Source of the DNA: Williamsia muralis NBRC 105860
GTDB lineage: Bacteria; Actinomycetota; Actinomycetes; Mycobacteriales; Mycobacteriaceae
Length of the DNA: 64,000 nucleotides
Direction: 5' to 3'
Assembly (NCBI RefSeq): GCF_001598915.1
Contig: NZ_BDAP01000005.1
Location: 310,001 to 374,000 of the forward strand
Positions 3,009-40,592 of this stretch are shown here, in pieces. A model generated the notes under the pieces. It was given only the letters and a program-made list of their open reading frames with translations. It was not told the DNA's origin and searched no databases. The position numbers and the translations under genes were made by a program. Each line of letters starts with the position of its first letter. The stretch's first letter is position 1.

Positions 3009-3431
<423 letters not shown>

Positions 3432-29004: not shown

Positions 29005-30567
29005 ATGGCCAGGTTGGTGCCCCGTTCACTTGCCGGCCAAACGTTTGTGCTGCAGCTGGTCGTGATCGCGGTGATGGTCCTGGGCGGCAGCGCGCTGGCG
29101 ATCGTCGACGCGAGACGCGACGGTGACGCCGCGGCGCGGTTGCAGGTCACCGGCATCGCCAGCGCGCTGGCCGAATCTCCGGCGACCGCAGCGGCCATCG
29201 AATCCGGAAGCGCGACAGCGGTGCTGCAACCGGTGACCGAACGGGTTCGGGCAGATACCCAGATCGCGTTCATCACGATCATGGCGCCTGACCGGACACG
29301 ATTCACCCACACGAATCCCGAACTCATCGGCCGGCCGTACATCGGGACCATCGAGCCTGCGTTGCAGGGCCGCACCTTCACCGAGGTCTACACCGGCACT
29401 CTCGGTCCGTCGATCCGCGCTGTCGCGCCGGTGCGCTCGTCGTCCGGCGAGGTCGTCGGACTGGTGTCGGCCGGGATCACCCAGCAGACGCTGTTCTCGC
29501 GCTGGCAGCAGCAGTTGCCGCAGATCCTGCTGATCGCCGCCGGCGCGTTACTCGTGTCCCTCGTCGGGATCTGGGCGATTCGCCGTCGCCTGCTGCGGCA
29601 GACACATGGGTTGGCTCCCACCGAACTGCAGGTGATGTATGAACATCACGACGCCATCCTTCACTCGGTGTCGGAAGGATTGATCGTGCTGGATCGACAC
29701 GGCGTGGCCCTGGCCAATGACGAGGCCCGGCGCCTGCTGGCACTGCCCGCAGGCGAGGTGGACAAAGAGAACCTGCCCGCATTTCTCCGGTCGTACTCCC
29801 CCGGCGCACGCGATGAAGTCCACGTGACGGGTGACCGGGTACTGGTGGTCAACAGGTCTCGCGTCCCCGGCAATCGGTCGCCGGAGACCGAGGTGGTCAC
29901 CATTCGTGATAGGACCGAATTGCAAGGCGCCCTGGGCGAACTCGACTCGATGAAGGTGTTCACCGAATCGCTGCGATCGCAGGCTCACGAATCGGCGAAC
30001 CGCCTGCACACCATCGTGACGCTGGTGGAGATGGGACGCGGCGACGAGGCCGTCCGCTTCGCCACCACCGAATTGGAGTTGTCGCAGAAGTTGGTCGACC
30101 GGCTGTCCGAATCGGTCGGTGAACCCGCACTGGCCGCCCTGTTGCTGGGCAAGAGCGCTCAGGCCGATGAACGGGGTATCGAGTTGACGATCACCGACGA
30201 CACCGTGATTCCCTCGGACAACGAGCACGCTGTGTTGTCGGGCCAAGAACTCGTCACCGTGGTGGGCAACCTTGTCGACAACGCCTTGGATGCATGCGAC
30301 CGGTCCGACCCCTGGGTGGAGGTGACCGTACGGCAAGATGGCGAACATCTGCTGATCCAGGTCGCCGACAGTGGCCCGGGCATGGACGCCGAGGAATTCA
30401 GCAAAGCGAGGCAACGCGGATACTCCACCAAGTCCGGTGGCGAAGCGGGCAGGCGCGGACTGGGTTTGGCGCTCGTGTCCCAGGTTGTCGATCGCCACGA
30501 AGGGACCCTCACTGCCGAGGTGACGTACGGCTCGGTTGTCACCGTCACCTTCGGCCCGCCGGCATGA
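29005..30567 (+). CDS. Sensor histidine kinase, CitA/DcuS family
   Basis: In 520 residues there is a membrane helix (about 11-31), an extracytoplasmic PAS-like (CitA) domain with RFTHTNPELIG and TGTLGPSIRAVAPV, a second helix (about 173-193), a cytoplasmic PAS, a phospho-acceptor AHESANRLHTIVTLVE (near 326), N-box NLVDNALDAC, and ATP-lid motifs DSGPGMD and GLGLALV. Such kinases sense citrate, fumarate or malate outside the cell. Its stop overlaps the regulator start (ATGA). Confidence 0.94.
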   Translation: MARLVPRSLAGQTFVLQLVVIAVMVLGGSALAIVDARRDGDAAARLQVTGIASALAESPATAAAIESGSATAVLQPVTERVRADTQIAFITIMAPDRTRFTHTNPELIGRPYIGTIEPALQGRTFTEVYTGTLGPSIRAVAPVRSSSGEVVGLVSAGITQQTLFSRWQQQLPQILLIAAGALLVSLVGIWAIRRRLLRQTHGLAPTELQVMYEHHDAILHSVSEGLIVLDRHGVALANDEARRLLALPAGEVDKENLPAFLRSYSPGARDEVHVTGDRVLVVNRSRVPGNRSPETEVVTIRDRTELQGALGELDSMKVFTESLRSQAHESANRLHTIVTLVEMGRGDEAVRFATTELELSQKLVDRLSESVGEPALAALLLGKSAQADERGIELTITDDTVIPSDNEHAVLSGQELVTVVGNLVDNALDACDRSDPWVEVTVRQDGEHLLIQVADSGPGMDAEEFSKARQRGYSTKSGGEAGRRGLGLALVSQVVDRHEGTLTAEVTYGSVVTVTFGPPA

Positions 30568-31256
30568 TCAACGTTCTCGTCGTCGAAGACGAACCGCTGA
30601 TCGCCGAAGCCCACCGCACGTATCTGGGCCGGATCGACGGCTTTTCCGTTGTCGCCGTGGTGCATACGGCGCAGGACGCCATGCGATCGGCCGCAGAGGC
30701 CGCGACAACGACAACACCCATCGACCTCGTACTCCTCGATCTGGGACTGCCCGACGCCAGCGGGATCGACCTGGCATCAGCACTGTCAGGGTTACGCCCG
30801 GCTCCGGACATCATCGCCATCACGTCCGAACGAGATCTGGAGATGGTGCGAGCCGCCGTGGCCCACGGGGCGCTGGCGTACCTGCTCAAACCGTTCACGT
30901 TCGCCGCTTTCCGCGACCGCCTCGAGCGGTACCAGCGTTATCGACAGGCGTTGCCCGCGGGCACCGACGCGGCCAGCCAGATCGAGGTCGACCGGGCGAT
31001 CGCCGAATTGCGGGGCACCACAGACAAATCCACGGCCCCGAAAGGCGCGGCACCCGGCACCACCGACGAGATAGCCCGCCGGATCCGCGACAGTCCCGAA
31101 GGTCTCACCGCCGCCGAGGCCGCCAACGAGGTCGGCGTGTCGCGGGTGACGGCCTGGCGTTATCTCGAACGCCTGGCCGACGAGGGAACCCTCTCTCGCC
31201 ACACGGACTACGGCAATGCCGGTCGACCCAAGATCCGTTACCAGTGGCGGCGCTGA
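30564..31256 (+). CDS. Response regulator, CitB/DcuR family
   Basis: The 230-residue regulator has a receiver domain with acidic pocket E8/D9 and phospho-acceptor D59 (LLDLGLPDASG), then KPF, and a C-terminal winged HTH (GLTAAEAANEVGVSRVTAWR, about 177-196) of the DcuR/CitB type. It overlaps the kinase by 4 bases (ATGA), so they are coupled. Its likely target is the divergent symporter gene. Confidence 0.94.
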   Translation: MINVLVVEDEPLIAEAHRTYLGRIDGFSVVAVVHTAQDAMRSAAEAATTTTPIDLVLLDLGLPDASGIDLASALSGLRPAPDIIAITSERDLEMVRAAVAHGALAYLLKPFTFAAFRDRLERYQRYRQALPAGTDAASQIEVDRAIAELRGTTDKSTAPKGAAPGTTDEIARRIRDSPEGLTAAEAANEVGVSRVTAWRYLERLADEGTLSRHTDYGNAGRPKIRYQWRR

Positions 31257-31260
31257 GCGG

Positions 31261-31815
31261 CTATGTCTCGCACGCCACCCCGTCGCCATCGCGGTCGAGG
31301 GCGGGCCGATAGCCGGCTTCTCCCTGCATGATCGGAGCAGCACCTGCCGCTTTCACCGCTGTGCAGTTCTCGTAATAGACCGCTCCGGCGTTGCTATCGG
31401 GTGCAACGGGCACGTACACCGGTGTCGACGTCCGCGGCATGACAGGCAGTGGCGCCTGAGTCGCAGCGTTCGTGTCCGGAATGCCTCGGGTGACCGGAAC
31501 CTCCACGATGGAGGTCACCACTGAGGTCACTATTCGGGTCGGCGGTGCCGCGGTCGTCGTGGTCGTGGTCGCGGTGGTGGTTGTCGATGTTGTCTTCGGC
31601 GGTGACGTCACCGCAGGTGTCGACGCTTCGGCCACAGTTTTCGGTTTTTCATCAGACTGCTCCTCCGAAGGAGCCACGAGGCCGACGATCATGAGGAGTG
31701 CGAAGACAGCAGCAACAATCCACGGCCATTTCCGCTTCTTCTTCGGTGGCTGCCCATATGGAGACCCGCCGGTTGGCCGATCCCAGTTATCGGGCATGGA
31801 GAACTGTTGCGTCAT
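31261..31815 (-). CDS. Membrane-anchored Excalibur-domain protein
   Basis: The 184-residue protein has a short cytoplasmic N-terminus with KKKRK, one membrane helix (WPWIVAAVFALLMIVGLVA, about 30-48), a Thr/Pro/Val-rich wall-spanning linker with a long threonine tract, and a C-terminal Excalibur calcium-binding domain (YYENCTAVKAAGAAP to DRDGDGVACE, paired cysteines). It should face the cell envelope. Excalibur domains are often attached to surface nucleases, but no nuclease domain is present here. Its stop is 4 bases from that of the response regulator. Confidence 0.9.
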   Translation of the reverse strand: MTQQFSMPDNWDRPTGGSPYGQPPKKKRKWPWIVAAVFALLMIVGLVAPSEEQSDEKPKTVAEASTPAVTSPPKTTSTTTTATTTTTTAAPPTRIVTSVVTSIVEVPVTRGIPDTNAATQAPLPVMPRTSTPVYVPVAPDSNAGAVYYENCTAVKAAGAAPIMQGEAGYRPALDRDGDGVACET

Positions 31816-32889: not shown

Positions 32890-33463
32890 TATCCCGAATT
32901 GGGAAACTGTTCTTTTAGAAGTAATTTCGAATTGATCGTCACGATCATAGTTTATGATTCTGACGATCAAAACCGTCGGATTTCAAAGCCTGTTCGAACA
33001 ATGTCGAATCCGATTCACGGCCTGTTCCCACCCTGATCGTCCCACCACGACAGCCTTCCTGCAACGTTGCCCCTGGCTGGTGAGCCGCAGACCAGCGGGC
33101 TGTCTTGCGTGCGGCACCAGGCCGGTGTGCGGTCCGCAAGACTCCGCGGGGTCACCTTGCCGTAGCTTTCCGGAGCCGCAGCGTGGGGGTGTAGCCGTCG
33201 GGTTCGTTCGTCTCGCCCTCGAACATCGCCCGACCCGACCACGTCGAGGGATTCAATTGCGAACCCTTACTAAGCGGGTTGAATTGGTTCTGCGAACGAA
33301 TTAGTCAGCGACTCAAATTGATCTTCGCCGACAAAGCCGATTGAACAATTCAGTTTTACCATTGTGGCGATTCGAAACAGGCCTGCGGCAATCGCGGGTC
33401 CGTTCAGCACCCCCACCGTGGACACACCTGCTCACCGAGCCAGGGTGTCGTACGCTCGCACCT
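32890..33463. other. Long intergenic region with AT-rich ends
   Basis: About 570 bases without a convincing gene. The stretches near 32890-32990 and 33290-33370 are clearly richer in A+T than the rest of the window, while the middle is GC-rich. No inverted-repeat ends, target duplications or transposase remnants were found. It may be the scar of a lost or acquired element or simply a long promoter region for the deaminase. Confidence 0.5.
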
Positions 33464-33943
33464 GTGGGCATAACGAACGACGATGTACAGCACCTACGGC
33501 GATGCGTGGATCTGGCACGCGAAGCGCTGGCGGCCGGCGATGAACCCTTCGGTTCAGTGCTCGTGAGCGCAGACGGCCGAACACTTTTCGAAGACCGCAA
33601 CCGCGTCAAAGACGGCGACAACACAAGGCATCCCGAGCTGACGATCGCGTTATGGGCAGTGGAGAACATGGAGCCGGCCGCGCGGGCCGCGGCCACGGTG
33701 TACACCTCCGGAGAGCATTGCCCGATGTGCGCCGCGGCGCACGCGTGGGTCGGACTGGGCCGAATTGCCTATGCGGTGTCGTCGTCTCAATTGTCGGAGT
33801 GGCTCGCGGAATGGAATGCTCCTCCCTCACCGGTCGCCGGGCTGCCGATCAACACCGTTGCGCCCCAATTGCCGGTAGACGGACCGGCTGATGCTCTGGT
33901 CGACGAGATGCGGGCCCTGCACGCACAGCGATTCAGCGTTTAG
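33464..33943 (+). CDS. Nucleoside/base deaminase (cytidine deaminase superfamily)
   Basis: The 159-residue protein has the zinc motif of the TadA/guanine deaminase group: HPEL (HxE) near 51 and CPMCAAAH (PCxxC) near 87, with a proton-shuttling glutamate in the first motif. Length fits guanine or cytosine deaminases rather than a large enzyme. GTG 33464 is selected where homology starts. It precedes the GntR/BMP transporter locus, whose family often imports purine nucleosides, so a link is possible but the genes are not in one operon (GntR is on the other strand). Confidence 0.87.
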   Translation: MGITNDDVQHLRRCVDLAREALAAGDEPFGSVLVSADGRTLFEDRNRVKDGDNTRHPELTIALWAVENMEPAARAAATVYTSGEHCPMCAAAHAWVGLGRIAYAVSSSQLSEWLAEWNAPPSPVAGLPINTVAPQLPVDGPADALVDEMRALHAQRFSV

Positions 33944-33991: not shown

Positions 33992-34729
33992 TCAAGTCGG
34001 TTCAGGTCTCGCCCGCCGACGTCCCTTCGTGGCCTCCACCGGATCGATCGACCCGCCCGACCACTCGGCGGCCATCGCAAGGCTTGCCTGCCGGCCCGAA
34101 TGAACGTGATGGAAGGCTGATTCGGCCGCACGGTCGGCGTCGTGGGCCGCGATGGCGGCAAGAATTTCCTCGTGCTCGTGGCATTGGCGGCCCGGATCCC
34201 GGTCTTTTGTCAGATGAAAGAGCCACTGCGTGCGCGCCTCCAGAGGGCGCAGCAGCGACTCCAGCAGAGGGTTCGCGGACAGGTCGACGATCATTTGGTG
34301 GAACTTGGCATTGGCCGCTGCGATCGCTGGGCGGTCCCGCTTCAGCGTCGCGGCACGAGCGGCTTCGAGTTGCTCCGACAACCGGGCGAGACCTTCCTCG
34401 TCGGCGCGCTCGGCAGCAAGCCGGGCGGCAAGGACTTCGAGACTCTCGCGCACGTCGAACAGATCTCGGACATCGTTCTCGCTGAAGGGCGAGACGATTG
34501 CACCTTGTCTCGGCACCAAAACCACCAGTCCGTCCTGCTGCAGCAACTGCAACGCCTCGCGCAGCGGGATACGCGAGACATCAAGTTCTGCGGCGAGATC
34601 GCGCTCCACCAGCCTCGACCCCGGCGCCAGCCGCAGATCTACGATCTGGCGCCGAATCTCCTCATACGCGTGCTGGCGCAAAGACTTTCGATCGTTTGCC
34701 GAACCCGTCAGCTCTTCTACCGCAGGCAT
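33992..34729 (-). CDS. GntR-family regulator with FCD domain (FadR subfamily)
   Basis: The 245-residue protein has a winged HTH (about 20-75: SLRQHAYEEIRRQIVDLRL, LAAELDVSRIPLREALQLL, then VPRQGAIV) and an all-helical FCD ligand domain with metal-site residues (D in NDVRDLFDVRE, H in AKFHQMIVDL, HEEIL, and FHHVHSGR). FCD regulators bind organic acids or amino-acid-like effectors. It is divergent from the BMP transporter operon, with two identical operator-like boxes in between. ATG 34729 is preferred to the in-frame TTG at 34738. Confidence 0.93.
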   Translation of the reverse strand: MPAVEELTGSANDRKSLRQHAYEEIRRQIVDLRLAPGSRLVERDLAAELDVSRIPLREALQLLQQDGLVVLVPRQGAIVSPFSENDVRDLFDVRESLEVLAARLAAERADEEGLARLSEQLEAARAATLKRDRPAIAAANAKFHQMIVDLSANPLLESLLRPLEARTQWLFHLTKDRDPGRQCHEHEEILAAIAAHDADRAAESAFHHVHSGRQASLAMAAEWSGGSIDPVEATKGRRRARPEPT

Positions 34730-34786
34730 GAACACCAAGTCCTCTCGCGGATTTCGCCTCGTTCAGCCGAGTCTAGCCAGACCCAC

Positions 34787-34869
34787 TTAGCGGTATACCA
34801 ATAACTAACCGGCTCGTAATCGGATGGAAACACTCAGCCCCCACTCTTCTCGTAACGGTATACCGCTAA
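34787..34869. promoter_or_regulatory. Paired GntR operator candidates (TTAGCGGTATACC)
   Basis: TTAGCGGTATACC occurs at 34787-34799 and, inverted, at 34857-34869. Each contains the 8-base palindrome GGTATACC; the second is a longer palindrome, CGGTATACCG. GntR/FadR-subfamily operators commonly have a GTATAC-like core with flanking dyad bases. One box lies 58 bases before the GntR start and the other about 30 bases before the BMP lipoprotein start, so binding could repress both directions, possibly through a loop (centres 65 bases apart). Confidence 0.8.
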
Positions 34870-34898
34870 AACACAGCGGCCGACGATCAGGAGACACG

Positions 34899-35897
34899 AT
34901 GAGATTTCGATCCACAACCGTCCGCGTACCAGTGGCGCTGCTCGCGGCCGGAGCCATTGCGGTAGGAATGTCAGGGTGCGGCACTTCGGGCGCCGACGCC
35001 AACGACGGGAGCCTGTCCGTCGGAGTCTTCTTCCCCGGCTCGGTCACCGACACCGGGTTCATGGAGTCGGGCTACCTCGGATACCAGAGGGTCGAGAAGG
35101 CACTCGGTGACCAGGTTGACCTCAGTTATGTCGAGCAAGTCGCACCAGCCGACTACCAGCAGGCATTGCAGCGCTTCGCATCTGAGAACGAATTGGTCAT
35201 CTCGGTCGGCGGCCAGACCGACGCCGACGTGCGTAAGATCGCCCCGCAGTTCCCAGACGTGAAGTTCGTCGAAATCGGTGGACCTTCCGACGCCGAACCG
35301 ATGGACAATCTCGCCTACTACGATCCGCAGCAGGCCGAAGCCGAATTCCTTTCCGGCGCAGTGGCAGCGGCTTCATCGGCCACCGGAACGGTCGGATTCG
35401 TCGGAGGCGTCGAGCTACCGGCCATCGTCAATGCGGCCAAGGCGTTCTCGAACGGGGCTACGTTTGTCCGACCCGATGTCAAGGTTCTCAGCCCCCAATA
35501 TGTCGGCGACTTCAACGATCCCGCCAAAGCCAAACAGGCTGCGGGCACCGCCTACGCGGGAGGTGCCAACATCCTCGGTCAGATCGTCAACCTCGGCAAA
35601 CAAGGCATCGAACAAGCTGCACGCGACTCGGGCAATCGTATGGTCGGCGGACCGATTCCCGGAGATTGCGCAAACCCGGTATACGCAGGTTTTGTCCGCA
35701 CCGACATCGGGACCGAGATCGAATACGCCGTCTCTTCAACGCTCGACGGCTCCTGGGAGGCTGCACAAGTTCCGTTCGGTCTGACAACAGACAAGGGTGG
35801 CAGCGACTTCATCCTCTGCTCGCAAGACCCGGCCGCCACCAAGGCGCTGACCGACGCAAAGGCGGCGCTGACATCCGGCTCCGTCACGGCATACTGA
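34899..35897 (+). CDS. BMP-family ABC transporter substrate-binding lipoprotein
   Basis: A 332-residue exported lipoprotein: basic N-terminus, hydrophobic core and lipobox GMSGC with the lipidated cysteine at 27. The mature part has the BMP/PnrA fold signatures (SVGVFFPGSVTDTGF; ADYQQALQRFA; GTVGFVGGVELP). PnrA-type proteins bind purine nucleosides, but family members with other ligands exist. AGGAG upstream supports ATG 34899. It leads a five-gene operon with an ATPase, two permeases and a mu-crystallin-like enzyme. Confidence 0.93.
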   Translation: MRFRSTTVRVPVALLAAGAIAVGMSGCGTSGADANDGSLSVGVFFPGSVTDTGFMESGYLGYQRVEKALGDQVDLSYVEQVAPADYQQALQRFASENELVISVGGQTDADVRKIAPQFPDVKFVEIGGPSDAEPMDNLAYYDPQQAEAEFLSGAVAAASSATGTVGFVGGVELPAIVNAAKAFSNGATFVRPDVKVLSPQYVGDFNDPAKAKQAAGTAYAGGANILGQIVNLGKQGIEQAARDSGNRMVGGPIPGDCANPVYAGFVRTDIGTEIEYAVSSTLDGSWEAAQVPFGLTTDKGGSDFILCSQDPAATKALTDAKAALTSGSVTAY

Positions 35898-35910
35898 AAC
35901 GGCCGACGCG

Positions 35911-37431
35911 ATGACCCCAGCAACCAGCCCGCTGTTGACGCTCGATCGAATCGGTAAGTCGTATGGCAGTGTTCGCGCGCTCGACGACGTCACCATGGCC
36001 GTCGAACGGGGCACGGTGCACTGCATCCTCGGAGAGAACGGTGCAGGCAAGTCGACACTGTGCAACGTCGTGTACGGAACGGTGTCTGCGGACCAGGGCA
36101 GTATGACCATCGACGGAACCCCGTACCGCCCTTCGACACCGGCAGCGGCACTCGAGTCCGGCGTCGCCATGGTGCATCAGCACTTCTCACTCATCCCCAC
36201 GATGACAGTGGAGGACAACCTGTTGTTGGGCCGGCGAGGTTTTCGCCAGCCACACGATGAGGTGGAGCAGGGCCTGGCGCGCATAGCCGATTCGTACGGA
36301 TTGACCGTGGACCGCACCGCCCGCGTCAGTGACCTTCCGATCGGCGCACGACAGCGGGTGGAGATCGTCAAAGCCCTGCTTCGACGGCCAGACCTCATCC
36401 TGCTCGACGAACCGACTGCGGTGCTCGACCCCGGTGAGATCGACTCGCTGATCGAGACCTGCAATGCCCTTGCCGCCGATGGCAAGTCGGTTGTCCTGAT
36501 CACCCACAAACTCGGAGAGGTCGCCCGCGTGGCCGATGCGGCGACTGTGCTCCGAGGCGGGACGGTCGTCGGCGGAGGCCGGCTGTCGCAGACACCGCTG
36601 GACTCCTTGCTCGACCTGATGCTCGGTGGCGCACAACCTGTTGCGTCCGAACGACGCCCGTCATCGCCACCGCATCACGCAGCACCCTGCTTGGAGGTCA
36701 GGGGCGTCACGCTGTCCCGCCCAGATGGCAGCACTGCCCTGTCAGACGTCGATTTGACTGTCCACTCAGGAGAGATCGTTGGTATCGCAGGTGTCGAAGG
36801 CAATGGCCAGTCGGAGCTGGCGGCAGTGTTGTCCGGGTCCGTCGCCGCTGATCGCGGAACAGTCAGTGTCGACGGGCTCGACATCACCGAACACACTCCG
36901 GCGCAGCGCACCCGTGCGGGCATGGGTGTCATTCCCGAAGACCGGCACGCCGAGGGCATGGTCGCCGAACTATCACTTGCCGAGAACTACGCACTCGGCC
37001 GATTGAGCGACTACCGGCGCTGGGGCCTACTGGATCGCCGGCGTATGAGAGCTGATGCCGCGCAGGCCATCACGGAGTACTCGATCCGCGCCGATGGTCC
37101 CGACATCCCCATCGGATCATTGTCCGGCGGCAACCAGCAGAAGGTTGTGCTGGCCCGGGAATTGTCGACCCCGGGGCTGCGTGTCGTCGTCGCGGCTCAA
37201 CCCACCCGTGGGCTCGACGTCGGTGCCGTCGCCTTTGTGCTCGACCGTCTTCGGGACGCCGCGGCGTCTGGCGCCGCAGTGTTGGTGATCTCCAGCGAGA
37301 TCGACGAGCTCGTCACCCTCTGCTCGCGCATTGTCGTCGCCTACCGCGGCACCATCCGCGGGTCTGTCGACTCCGAGTCTTCCTCTGCCACAAACGACAT
37401 CGGCGAGCTCATGATGGGGGTGGCAGGATGA
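35911..37431 (+). CDS. ABC transporter ATPase with two nucleotide-binding domains (BMP/sugar type)
   Basis: The 506-residue protein carries two ABC domains as in RbsA/NupA-type systems. The first has Walker A GENGAGKST (41-49) and a degenerate signature LPIGARQ (about 143) with Walker B LILLDEPTAVLD. The second has a degenerate Walker A GVEGNGQSE without lysine, a good LSGGNQQ signature (about 404) and AAQPTRGLD in place of the usual catalytic-glutamate Walker B. This asymmetry is normal for the family, with one competent composite site. Its last 4 bases overlap the first permease. Confidence 0.94.
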   Translation: MTPATSPLLTLDRIGKSYGSVRALDDVTMAVERGTVHCILGENGAGKSTLCNVVYGTVSADQGSMTIDGTPYRPSTPAAALESGVAMVHQHFSLIPTMTVEDNLLLGRRGFRQPHDEVEQGLARIADSYGLTVDRTARVSDLPIGARQRVEIVKALLRRPDLILLDEPTAVLDPGEIDSLIETCNALAADGKSVVLITHKLGEVARVADAATVLRGGTVVGGGRLSQTPLDSLLDLMLGGAQPVASERRPSSPPHHAAPCLEVRGVTLSRPDGSTALSDVDLTVHSGEIVGIAGVEGNGQSELAAVLSGSVAADRGTVSVDGLDITEHTPAQRTRAGMGVIPEDRHAEGMVAELSLAENYALGRLSDYRRWGLLDRRRMRADAAQAITEYSIRADGPDIPIGSLSGGNQQKVVLARELSTPGLRVVVAAQPTRGLDVGAVAFVLDRLRDAAASGAAVLVISSEIDELVTLCSRIVVAYRGTIRGSVDSESSSATNDIGELMMGVAG

Positions 37432-38570
37432 TGCCGACGGCTGTTCTGCTTCGTACCAAACTGCGGCAGGGCGATTGGGCCCACAGTCCTCTTGTGGTCG
37501 CCGTCGTTGCCTTGGTGATCGCCGCAGGCATCGGACTGCTGTTGGCCGCAGGCGCTGGGGCCGGGCCCGCCGAGGTCATCGACGCCCTCATCCAGGGAAC
37601 ATTCGGCTCGCCCTTCGCCGTCGGCACCTCGCTGAACAACGCTGCCATCATCATGTTCATCGCGGCGGGCTTCACCGTCGCTTATCGGGCCGGTCTGGTG
37701 AACGTCGGAGGCGAAGGCCAGATCTGTCTCGGCGGCATTGCTGCCACTGCGGTGGGCGTGACCATCCCCGACGCCATGCCTCTCTTCCTTGGAGTCACCC
37801 TGGCGCTGGTGGCTGCCGTATTGGCCGGCGCAAGTTGGGCGGCCATTGCGGCGTGGCTCTATGTTCGGCGCGGTACCAGCGAGATCATCACCACCCTGCT
37901 GCTCAACTTTGTCGGCCTGGCGTTGGTTGTGTTGATGGTCCAGGAGCCGAGCTTGCTCCGGCAGCCGATGACCTCGTCGGAGACGCTCCCGCAGTCGGAG
38001 TCGCTGAGCGAAGCGAGCCACCTCCCGCTACTGGGATTGACCAAATCGCCGGCCACCGTGGCCATCGTCATTGCGCTCCTTGCCATCACGGCCGTCGGAG
38101 TGGTTTTGCGGCACAGCGCAATCGGACTACGGCTCCGCTCAGTGGGACTGTCACCGACTGCATCGGGTCGACTGGGTGTCCCAGTTGATCGCGTCCGTTT
38201 CCTGGGGCTCTCCACCGCAGGTGGATTCTCCGGGCTGGCCGGTGGAATCCTTGTCACGTCCGCCCCGTTCGTCTTGGCCGAAGGGTTCTCGTCAGGCTTC
38301 GGTTTCACCGGCCTCGTGGTCGGTTTGCTTGCCCGCGGGTCGATGACAGCAGTTGCCGGGGTGTCGCTGTTCCTGGGATTCCTGGTTGCCGGCGGTATCA
38401 ATCTGCAGTTGGCCGCGGGAGTTCCGTCCTCCACCGTGACCGTGGTGCAGAGCGTGCTGATCATCTTGATCGCGGGCGCTGCCTTGTGGACCACCCGGTC
38501 GAGATCAGTGGCGCCCCCCGAGGCCACTTTGGCACCCGCCATCACAGCCCCCGCAAAGGCGACGTCATGA
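37428..38570 (+). CDS. ABC transporter permease 1 (BMP type)
   Basis: A 380-residue permease of the BPD_transp_2 family with about 9-10 helices and the hallmark GLVNVGGEGQICLGGIAA and GTSEIITTLLLNF segments used by nucleoside and simple-sugar ABC importers. It starts in an ATGATG overlapping the ATPase stop and ends in ATGA with the next permease, showing tight translational coupling. It forms a heterodimeric channel with permease 2. Confidence 0.93.
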   Translation: MMPTAVLLRTKLRQGDWAHSPLVVAVVALVIAAGIGLLLAAGAGAGPAEVIDALIQGTFGSPFAVGTSLNNAAIIMFIAAGFTVAYRAGLVNVGGEGQICLGGIAATAVGVTIPDAMPLFLGVTLALVAAVLAGASWAAIAAWLYVRRGTSEIITTLLLNFVGLALVVLMVQEPSLLRQPMTSSETLPQSESLSEASHLPLLGLTKSPATVAIVIALLAITAVGVVLRHSAIGLRLRSVGLSPTASGRLGVPVDRVRFLGLSTAGGFSGLAGGILVTSAPFVLAEGFSSGFGFTGLVVGLLARGSMTAVAGVSLFLGFLVAGGINLQLAAGVPSSTVTVVQSVLIILIAGAALWTTRSRSVAPPEATLAPAITAPAKATS

Positions 38571-39493
38571 ACATCGACATGCTCACCCAGGTCCTCACCA
38601 GCGGGGTGGCCTTCGCGATCCTGCTCATCGTGGCCGCAGCAGGTGAATCGATCAGCGAACGTGCAGGCGTGCTCAACCTCAGCATGGAGGGCATCATGCT
38701 CACCGGCGCTTTCGCGAGCGTGTTGGCCTCTGCCACACTTGATTCGGCGATGCTCGGCCTCGTCAGCGGCGTGCTTGCGGCTCTCATCTTCGGCATCATC
38801 CAGGCGTTGCTGACGGTGCGGTTCCGAGCCGACCAGATCGTTGTCGGAATTGCCGGCAACGCATTGGCTCTGGGGTTGACCACCTACGGTGCCCGCATCT
38901 TCCTCGAGGACGGCAAAGGCCAGGGTGTACCCGGCTTCAACGGCGTCGATATCCCCTTGCTGACCGACATCCCGATCGTCGGTCCGGCCCTGTTCGGACA
39001 ATCAGTCCTCGGCTACCTCTGTGTGCTCGTGGTCATCGCGCTGGCGCTGCTGTTCTCCGGCAAGACCATGGCGGGCATCCGCGTGGACGCCGTCGGCGAG
39101 GACGCCACATCGGCCGGCTGGACAGGATTGTCCGTCAACAAGATCCGGGCCGCGTGCGTCTTGCTGGCTGCCGCAACAGGCGGTCTCGCAGGATCTCAAC
39201 TGGCCCTCTCGGAAGTGCAGTCGTTCAGCGAGAACATGACTGCCGGCCTCGGGTACCTCGCCGTGGTCGCAGTGATCGCAGGACGGTGGAAAGTGATCGG
39301 AATCGTGTGGGCGTGCCTGTTCTTCGGGATCGCCCGATCGCTTCAGTTCGCCTTGCCTGCCGTCGGAGTCGACATCCCCTACGCGATCTTGCTGATGCTG
39401 CCGTACGTCATCGCCATCGTCGCGATCAGCGGCGTGGTCGGTGGCCGTCGAGCCCCGTCGTGCCTCACCGTGCCGTACGCCGGCCGTTCCTGA
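38567..39493 (+). CDS. ABC transporter permease 2 (BMP type)
   Basis: The 308-residue second permease shares the family layout: GVLNLSMEGIMLTGAF near the N-terminus, RADQIVVGIAGNALALGLT in the middle, and GLGYLAVVAVIAGRW near the C-terminus. ATG 38567 overlaps the previous stop by 4 bases (ATGA). It pairs with permease 1. The next gene begins 23 bases downstream. Confidence 0.93.
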   Translation: MNIDMLTQVLTSGVAFAILLIVAAAGESISERAGVLNLSMEGIMLTGAFASVLASATLDSAMLGLVSGVLAALIFGIIQALLTVRFRADQIVVGIAGNALALGLTTYGARIFLEDGKGQGVPGFNGVDIPLLTDIPIVGPALFGQSVLGYLCVLVVIALALLFSGKTMAGIRVDAVGEDATSAGWTGLSVNKIRAACVLLAAATGGLAGSQLALSEVQSFSENMTAGLGYLAVVAVIAGRWKVIGIVWACLFFGIARSLQFALPAVGVDIPYAILLMLPYVIAIVAISGVVGGRRAPSCLTVPYAGRS

Positions 39494-39516
39494 ACCTCTT
39501 TGCCCCGGAAGGCGAC

Positions 39517-40500
39517 ATGACCCTCATCCTCACCCACTCCGACATCGACGCGCTCATCGACCGGACTTCGGTCTACCGCGCCGTGGAGCAGGCTCACGCT
39601 GATCTGACATCAGGTGCTGCGAGTAACCCCGCTCCCCCTCAGTTGCCGATCGCCGACGGCGGCACCGCCCTCCCGATGGTGGCGTCGTCAGAACCGTTGG
39701 GCGCCAGCGTCGTCAAGATGTTGTCGGACATGCCGGCCAATGTCGGCCGCGGGCTCCCGAGTCAGCGATCGACCATCCTGCTGATGTCGGCACAGACCGG
39801 CGAGTGCGAAGCAGTACTCGACGGCCGCCTCATCACAGCCATCCGTACTGCTGCGGCGAGCGCGGTGGCGACGGCTCACCTTGCCACGCAACGGAGCTCG
39901 ATTCTGGGGCTCATCGGTGCCGGAACCCTCGCGGTGGAGCACGCCCGCGCCATCTGCCAAATCCGGAACATCGAGAAGGTTCTGGTGTGGTCACGGTCGG
40001 CGTCAACCGTCGACAGCTTCCGCCGTCGGACAGCCGATCTCGACATCCAGATCGAATACGCCGAATCCCCTCGGTCTATTCTCGCCTCCGCCGACATCGT
40101 CTGCACACTGACGCCGTCGCGCGAACCGATCGTCGAGGGCGCCTGGTTCCGCCCGGGCCTGCACCTGAACGCCGTCGGCGCTCCTCCTCGCGCGGACCAC
40201 CGTGAGATCGACGGCCCCGGGATCGGCAGCAGCCGGCTGATCGTCGACAGCATTCCGACCGCACTCACCAAATCGGGAGATGTCCTGGTGGCGATCGCCG
40301 AAGGCCACTTGCAGACGCAGGACGTCGATGTCGAACTCGGCGATGTGATCGTGAATCCCGCTCTCGGCCGCCAAAGCGACGACGACATCACCCTGTTCAA
40401 CTCCGTCGGAATCGGTCTACAGGATCTGGTGACCGCCCGGACGCTGGTCGATGTGGCGATGCAAAAGGGTGTCGGGGCGAGTGTGCGGTTGAATGCTTGA
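39517..40500 (+). CDS. Ornithine cyclodeaminase/mu-crystallin family protein
   Basis: The 327-residue enzyme has the family Rossmann motif GLIGAGTLAVEHA (about 132-144) for NAD(P)H and the substrate-arginine segment RTAAASAVAT just before it. The motif that supplies the catalytic aspartate in true ornithine cyclodeaminase (GxD) reads NAVGAPPRADHREID (about 218-232), closer to mammalian mu-crystallin, a ketimine reductase, than to the cyclodeaminase. It is 23 bases after the BMP-type permease, so it probably acts on an imported imine- or amino-acid-like compound. Function is inferred. Confidence 0.9.
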   Translation: MTLILTHSDIDALIDRTSVYRAVEQAHADLTSGAASNPAPPQLPIADGGTALPMVASSEPLGASVVKMLSDMPANVGRGLPSQRSTILLMSAQTGECEAVLDGRLITAIRTAAASAVATAHLATQRSSILGLIGAGTLAVEHARAICQIRNIEKVLVWSRSASTVDSFRRRTADLDIQIEYAESPRSILASADIVCTLTPSREPIVEGAWFRPGLHLNAVGAPPRADHREIDGPGIGSSRLIVDSIPTALTKSGDVLVAIAEGHLQTQDVDVELGDVIVNPALGRQSDDDITLFNSVGIGLQDLVTARTLVDVAMQKGVGASVRLNA

Positions 40501-40517: not shown

Positions 40518-40592
40518 TGGTGCGCGCAGAGGGATTTGAACCCCCGACCGCTGGTGTGTAAGACCAGAGCTCTACCGCTGAGCTATACGCGC
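40518..40592 (-). tRNA. tRNA-Val (anticodon TAC)
   Basis: The minus-strand sequence folds as a cloverleaf: acceptor GCGCGTA with TGCGCGC, D-arm GCTCAGCGGTAGAGC, anticodon stem CTGGT/ACCAG around loop CTTACAC with anticodon TAC at 40560-40558, T-arm GGGGGTTCAAATCCCTC, discriminator A. The 3' CCA is encoded (40520-40518). It reads GTA valine codons. It starts about 95 bases after the peroxiredoxin gene on the same strand. Confidence 0.97.

Follow-up and report, generated by a model that had tools for sequence, protein, structure and literature searches.

A BMP-type importer and an OCD/mu-crystallin-family enzyme encoded as one conserved actinobacterial unit: a candidate operon for scavenging an N-heterocycle

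Why should an importer of the BMP/PnrA type be encoded together with an enzyme of the ornithine cyclodeaminase (OCD)/mu-crystallin family? The question is raised by a locus of Williamsia muralis NBRC 105860, located in a 64,000-nucleotide stretch of contig NZ_BDAP01000005.1 (contig positions 310,001 to 374,000), here called the window. A first-pass annotation had described six genes there, encoding a GntR(FCD) regulator and, divergently from it, a lipoprotein with a lipobox, an ATPase, two permeases and the OCD-family enzyme. The pairing of importer and enzyme exceeds chance and the genes form a conserved unit. On balance, we lean slightly towards regarding it as a small catabolic (scavenging) operon dedicated to an N-heterocycle, in which uptake would be combined with deamination and an NAD(P)-dependent redox step at a C-N or C=N bond. 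The features of the locus, in window positions, are as follows.

33404..33943, + strand: CDA-fold deaminase adjoining the repressor gene (PF00383; PDB 8wlv, E 4e-67; start codon uncertain)
33992..34729, - strand: GntR-family repressor with an FCD domain, 245 amino acids (GntR, PF00392, 65 bits; FCD, PF07729, 100 bits)
34787..34804, no strand: operator palindrome 1, core GGTATACC (from the sequence)
34852..34869, no strand: operator palindrome 2, core GGTATACC (from the sequence and a genome-wide pattern search)
34899..35897, + strand: BMP/PnrA-type substrate-binding lipoprotein (Bmp, PF02608, 114 bits; lipobox MSGC; AtzT top in PDB by sequence and fold)
35911..37431, + strand: two-domain ATP-binding cassette (ABC) ATPase (ABC_tran, PF00005 in two stretches, 169 bits)
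37428..38570, + strand: permease 1 (BPD_transp_2, PF02653, 97 bits)
38567..39493, + strand: permease 2 (BPD_transp_2, PF02653, 101 bits)
39517..40500, + strand: OCD/mu-crystallin-family enzyme of a distinct clade (OCD_Mu_crystall, PF02423, 199 bits, cut-off 24; tree clade; residues GLPxQRS and VGAPPRxDHRE)

The coordinates and the Pfam matches, each above its cut-off, agree with the six genes as first described, and so does their spacing: the ATPase gene overlaps that of permease 1, and the latter that of permease 2, by four bases each (ATGA type), and the genes for permease 2 and the enzyme are 23 bases apart. The repressor most likely starts at the ATG at 34729. By their Pfam matches the four transport proteins, together with the MSGC lipobox, make up an ABC importer of the BMP/PnrA type, and the source genome contains one match to the Bmp family and one to the OCD family, both at the operon.

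The prevalence of the system is low: with the window included in both counts, the lipoprotein was found in 11 of 201 genomes of the family (the window and ten relatives) and the system in 3 of the 394 members of a class sample. In all 11 family carriers the genes for the repressor, the ATPase, both permeases and the enzyme lie beside that of the lipoprotein. A wider set of 50 loci with an orthologous lipoprotein was obtained by a scan of public records, one genome per species, some of the records being strains of one species (two of N. neocaledoniensis). As the scan relied on two peptide patterns built on seven rows, distant members are under-counted in this set. The enzyme gene is present in 47 of the 50 loci, and the remaining three (L033, L037, and L048) stop at a contig edge. 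All five operon genes are found in 46 loci, in the order lipoprotein, ATPase, permease, permease, enzyme in 44 of them; in two complete loci, L068 and L071, the lipoprotein gene is placed last. The contig of L069 starts within the enzyme gene, and the repressor, ATPase, and permease genes are found at the end of a separate contig from the same genome. A repressor gene is found at 49 of the 50 loci; it diverges from the operon in 39 and runs in the same direction in 10. The first-pass annotation had proposed co-occurrence among actinobacteria as the check on its reading, and these counts bear it out.

Enzyme-bearing loci were found in Nocardia, Rhodococcus, Williamsia, Gordonia, Mycolicibacterium, Cellulosimicrobium, Isoptericola, Oerskovia, Kineosporia, Actinoplanes, Nocardiopsis, Actinocorallia, among others. 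Of the named relatives those in Williamsia are closest, a W. muralis lipoprotein (L070) being 98% identical to that of the window. A lipoprotein 99% identical is encoded in a record titled Kitasatospora arboriphila NRRL B-24581 (L024, NZ_JNYV01000005.1), a title that may be wrong. Two Williamsia genomes without a match to the importer (L093 and L094) retain remnants of the operon beside a deaminase gene, in one of them residues 140-327 of the enzyme and part of the repressor, in the other enzyme residues 285-327; therefore, all nine genomes of the genus have or had the system. The MFS (major facilitator superfamily) and ribokinase genes downstream were considered as core members and rejected, their place and strand not being conserved among the relatives.

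What the importer carries can be approached through its lipoprotein. In a Foldseek comparison of its AlphaFold2 model (predicted local distance difference test, pLDDT, 83) AtzT ranked first (28% identity over the model), followed by 3s99, both purine-bound, and then by the nucleoside-binding PnrA; AtzT is also the closest protein in PDB by sequence. The expectation of the first-pass annotation that importers of this type mostly take up nucleosides thus needs adjusting, as the model is nearer to the base-bound AtzT and 3s99 than to nucleoside-bound PnrA. In AtzT (PMC6834077) guanine is held between Tyr45 and Trp194 and contacted by Asn218, Asn220, Glu165, and Ser97; when 2-hydroxyatrazine is bound, Asn218 faces its N-isopropyl group. 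In the sequence alignment Tyr45, Trp194, Asn218, Asn220, Glu165, and Ser97 correspond to Phe54, Phe205, Ile229, Asn231, Ala175, and Gly104, respectively. Among 27 chosen rows Phe54, Phe205, and Asn231 are invariant, so that the aromatic sandwich and the Asn220 contact are kept, whereas the guanine contacts Glu165, Asn218, and Ser97 are not: Ala175 is found in 26 rows, Ile229 in 24 (Gln in three), and Gly104 in all 27. Additionally, position 234 is Lys or Arg in every row and position 267 is basic (Arg, His, or Lys) in 25 of the 27. With the sandwich preserved, the contacts that read the base gone, and basic residues conserved, we infer that the ligand is an anionic or N-substituted ring compound. 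AtzT of Pseudomonas sp. ADP (6pi5, 6pi6, and 6pii) and Brucella 3s99 are members of the same lipoprotein family with the same fold; AtzT differs in these three residues and in its neighbouring genes.

The same comparison introduces an alternative that we hold to be rather unlikely, namely ordinary purine salvage, in which guanine or another common base would be imported and converted by the deaminase to xanthine, the OCD gene encoding a side enzyme such as a general imine or alanine oxidoreductase. AtzT, the nearest structure to the lipoprotein, retains guanine (PMC6834077), and the deaminase encoded in many of the operons matches the guanine deaminase 1wkq (E 3e-20). However, the changed contact positions speak against it, and the enzyme gene is never missing where the contig permits it to be seen (47 of 47), mostly standing between permease 2 and the deaminase. 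Plain guanine was rejected as the ligand on account of the changed contacts and retained within this alternative. A vitamin B6 label (NCBIfam ABC_B6) was also rejected, all scores being below the cut-offs: 36.7 of 400 for the lipoprotein, 451 of 670 for the ATPase, and 134 of 400 and 162 of 465 for the permeases.

The operator provides further evidence on both sides. The motif GGTATACC is present upstream of the lipoprotein gene in 48 of the 50 loci, and a version with one base changed, GGCATACC, in L069, giving 49 of 50; in L071, where the lipoprotein gene is the last one, no operator was found within 400 bases upstream of it. The usual 18-bp form is TTAGYGGTATACCRCTAA. A genome-wide search of 23 genomes with TARYGGTATACCRYTA, allowing at most one mismatch, yielded 34 sites, 32 of them at the system (the second contig of the L069 genome being counted), and a control with the reversed pattern yielded four, two of these in the source genome. 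With 32 of 34 sites at the system, the predicted regulon appears nearly private to it, and a wide regulon was rejected. In a second Nocardia, besides the one with off-locus sites discussed below, a similar palindrome is found at the allantoicase gene, so that 2 of 18 allantoicase loci have a site and 16 do not. The palindromes concerned lie near position 4617 of L150 and at L164:1393-1410, in a purine-breakdown cluster of two Nocardia. This placing of the operator upstream of allantoicase is what purine salvage would lead one to expect, and so is the occurrence of allantoicase in all 11 importer carriers compared with 91 of the 201 family genomes; it is found as well in 19 of 19 family carriers of the enzyme clade. 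The link is weak when counted by genus, though (7 of 7 versus 20 of 31, p about 0.03), and the association is therefore a hint rather than a proof; among 20 carriers tested, allantoicase is present in 18 and lacking in two.

The second component to be explained is the enzyme. Its AlphaFold2 model is confident (pLDDT 94), and both sequence and model assign it the fold of the OCD/mu-crystallin family, the closest solved relative being 6t3e, a Delta1-pyrroline-2-carboxylate reductase. None of the NCBIfam OCD subfamily cut-offs was reached: AlaDH gave 219 bits of 409, PRK06141 212 of 322, LhpI 126 of 400, BhcD 191 of 500, EutC 153 of 472, and SbnB 131 of 327. In a tree of 31 rows, with BhcD, EutC, a proline-racemase-linked OCD gene, and four others as outgroups, 24 rows constitute one clade (support 98/99), whose hallmarks are a GLPxQRS stretch and an N-x-VGAPPRxDHRE(I/V)D motif, the latter varied in the MFS-linked rows described below. 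The long branch of one row, L082, is not trusted since its enzyme, which has no annotated gene, was matched in two pieces and translated in one frame for the tree; the gene may be frameshifted.

Lys67 and Arg110 of the enzyme are invariant (29 of 29 rows) and align with the Lys and Arg of the family. In ornithine cyclodeaminase the carboxylate of the substrate is bound by Arg112 and Lys69, and the proton of the amine passes to Asp228 (PMC3497308); Lys67 and Arg110 would be equivalent to this Lys69 and Arg112, as judged through the relatives. Pro223 aligns with the catalytic Asp of alanine dehydrogenase (1omo), and presumably also replaces Asp228 of the cyclodeaminase, while Pro40 aligns with an Arg of 6t3e and of mu-crystallin. 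The OCD superfamily is described as acting on amino-acid ketimines (PMC4113996). With the Lys/Arg carboxylate pair kept and a Pro at the Asp position, the protein is consistent with an oxidoreductase for imines or amines whose pocket has changed. It has the same fold family and the same carboxylate-site Lys and Arg as the Delta1-pyrroline-2-carboxylate/piperideine-2-carboxylate reductases, mu-crystallin, and alanine dehydrogenase, but belongs to a separate clade and differs from them in Pro223, Pro40, Arg84, and the PPRxDHRE loop.

The first-pass annotation had suggested that the system imports and reduces a cyclic imine or a modified amino acid, or else a nucleoside-derived compound. The imine-handling part of this proposal agrees with the residues of the enzyme; plain ornithine, proline, or pipecolate as the substrate would leave an AtzT-like importer with a deaminase unexplained. 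For the same reason it seems decidedly unlikely that the enzyme is a ketimine reductase of the proline/pipecolate type or an alanine dehydrogenase, served by an importer for an amino-acid-derived cyclic imine, with the deaminase incidental. The two best curated models, alanine dehydrogenase and Delta1-pyrroline-2-carboxylate reductase PRK06141, and the closest solved relative do point that way, yet the scores fall short of both cut-offs, as of all others, Pro223 and Pro40 stand where those enzymes have Asp and Arg, and the clade is apart from the BhcD, EutC, and proline-racemase-linked rows. A further point in favour of such a reductase comes from another genomic setting: in L088 (9095-15811) a clade enzyme gene overlaps a kynureninase gene, following genes for an SBP_bac_3 transporter and a PRK06151-like amidohydrolase. 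The kynureninase reaction releases alanine.

Other settings of the clade lack the BMP importer as well. In L082, as in L088, the enzyme is accompanied by an amino-acid-type ABC transporter and a PRK06151-like amidohydrolase, which shares 77% identity with its L088 counterpart. On a Roseateles plasmid (L079) the enzyme gene adjoins a gene annotated as a xanthine permease (no Pfam match was found for it), and amidohydrolases of the PRK06846 and PRK05985 types are encoded 2 and 8 kb from the enzyme. The pairing of the clade with a deaminase-class hydrolase therefore recurs with non-homologous partners and is not universal. The amidohydrolases near the enzyme gene in L088, L082, and L079 count in favour of the N-heterocycle reading, as does that of L069 described below. 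A second type of operon (L128-L134) comprises genes for a GntR regulator, an MFS transporter, an NMT1/THI5-like protein, and the enzyme; the GntR gene is present in six of these seven genomes, and in the seventh the contig ends.

Within the BMP-type loci the usual partner is a CDA-fold deaminase: in 33 of 47 loci its gene begins no more than about 100 bases past the enzyme gene, and in most cases the two genes touch. Five other loci, all Williamsia (the record titled Kitasatospora among them), have a deaminase gene farther away, on the far side of the repressor. The operonic deaminase of Rhodococcus globerulus (L031:15411-15845), examined as an example, contains the zinc deaminase domain (PF00383, 79.5 bits) and matches 1wkq about as well (E 3e-20) as 8wlw; no curated NCBIfam cut-off was reached by it. 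Operonic deaminases thus match both the guanine and the cytosine type of CDA-fold deaminases, 1wkq, which we take to be from Bacillus subtilis, and 5xko/8wlv, presumably from Mycobacterium smegmatis (E about 1e-20), and differ from them in being tied to this operon and in scoring under the curated cut-offs. The comparison of deaminases with those of further genomes, given below, relied on pairwise identities, as the deaminase tree was poorly resolved and only one of nine outside comparison rows passed the motif filter; the search model was built from the 21 of 33 operonic deaminases that passed the same filter.

The deaminase of the window matches 8wlv over nearly its full length. Its type is present in nine of nine genomes of the genus, two of which lack the importer, and proteins 61-68% identical to it were found in six of seven further genomes, on other contigs or far from the system, one of these genomes also carrying an operonic deaminase. 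Its membership in the system is thus unproven, because it is of a general type found even in importer-less relatives; it was rejected as a proven member and is at most a possible stand-in.

L069 encodes, between the enzyme and lipoprotein genes, a cytosine-deaminase-class amidohydrolase of the PRK05985 type (432 bits, cut-off 408), whose nearest solved relative is N-isopropylammelide isopropylaminohydrolase. This relative is consistent with another explanation, oxidative C-N cleavage, in which the imported compound would be a base bearing a carboxyalkyl or amino-acid substituent on N; the OCD enzyme would split it into the free base and a keto acid, after which the base would be the substrate of the deaminase. 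SbnB, an enzyme of the OCD family, oxidises the C-N bond of its own substrate. The kept Lys/Arg pair suits such a reaction, as do the Lys or Arg at position 234 of the lipoprotein and the Ile that replaces, in most rows, the Asn218 that in AtzT meets an N-isopropyl group. Still, the enzyme scores far below the SbnB model cut-off, and an N-substituted ligand is itself deduced from the residues; we therefore find this explanation very improbable.

Returning to the scavenging of an N-heterocycle, which we prefer, the following course can be envisaged. In the absence of the substrate the FCD-type GntR protein would sit on the GGTATACC palindromes and repress the divergent operon. When induced, the AtzT-like lipoprotein and the ABC transporter would import a planar compound of nucleobase size, best read as a purine- or pyrimidine-like heterocycle and probably bearing a carboxylate or an amino-acid group. 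The deaminase, encoded right after the enzyme in most relatives, would take off a ring amino group, a role perhaps filled in the window by the neighbouring deaminase, and the OCD-clade enzyme would transfer hydride, with NAD(P), at a C=N or C-N bond adjoining the carboxylate. The two steps could follow in either order, the end being housekeeping metabolites and ammonia, with housekeeping purine or nitrogen metabolism taking over. As the operator is found almost only at this system, little else should need induction. A bolder version, which we consider unlikely, is a dedicated pathway, so far undescribed, for a modified nucleobase or a pterin that bears a carboxyl group, the clade then being a new functional subfamily acting on modified bases instead of amino acids. 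An N-carboxyalkylated (glycated) guanine, for instance, could be split by oxidative C-N cleavage into guanine and a keto acid; in pterin-6-carboxylate, a ring C=N beside the carboxylate would be the type of bond on which ketimine reductases act. A guanine-deaminase-like partner would pass the product to purine breakdown.

Several observations weigh against the scavenging operon as proposed. The first-pass annotation held that its own reading would fail if the enzyme gene were absent beside orthologous transporters; down to 52% lipoprotein identity no such case was seen, but no OCD gene is listed beside BMP relatives at 41-47% identity in the three plasmid records, of 13, that were inspected (Rhizobium, Paraburkholderia, and Variovorax). 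These importers have the same four transport genes, and amide hydrolases stand in place of the OCD-family enzyme and the deaminase, their neighbours being RutB/biuret-hydrolase-like and amidase genes (a family scan covered the hydrolases of Rhizobium and Paraburkholderia). No deaminase was found within nine of the 47 enzyme-bearing loci (L069, with its amidohydrolase, is among the nine), and the deaminase of the window itself is of the general actinobacterial type. Nor was a deaminase noted in the seven family genomes where the clade is paired with an MFS transporter and an NMT1/THI5-like protein, or seen in L089, and, set against the Roseateles case, a near-identical Shinella copy (L078) has no annotated permease or deaminase within 12 kb. 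Finally, the two off-locus operator sites are both in one Nocardia: one directly precedes an allantoicase gene whose cluster also includes a DUF6986 gene and a xanthine-dehydrogenase-like gene, and the other has no recognised partner alongside.

In the open library searched no paper was found with 'ornithine cyclodeaminase' and 'BMP family ABC transporter' together; looser searches gave nothing on the pairing among the matches listed, judged by title or the start of the abstract. Each of the protein families is known; what appears to be undescribed is the way they are combined, along with the dedicated deaminase, the operator, and the enzyme clade. Added here to the first-pass annotation are the deaminase following the enzyme in the relatives, the two operator palindromes, and the deaminase gene ending at 33943. 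The system offers a compact target, with one importer, one enzyme clade, usually one deaminase, and a near-private operator common to several actinobacterial families, so that three purified proteins would suffice to test a catabolic route not known so far. The work could widen the range of the OCD/mu-crystallin family from amino-acid ketimines to nucleobase-like compounds and reveal which modified base or heterocycle soil actinobacteria scavenge.

Apart from the operon, the window contains overlapping genes for a sensor kinase with an sCache_3_2 domain and a response regulator (29005-31256, + strand), followed by a gene for a small protein with an Excalibur calcium-binding domain (31261-31815, - strand). 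A tRNA-Val (tac) gene lies directly downstream of the operon (40518-40592, - strand), and the RNase P RNA gene is located elsewhere in the window (3012-3423, - strand).

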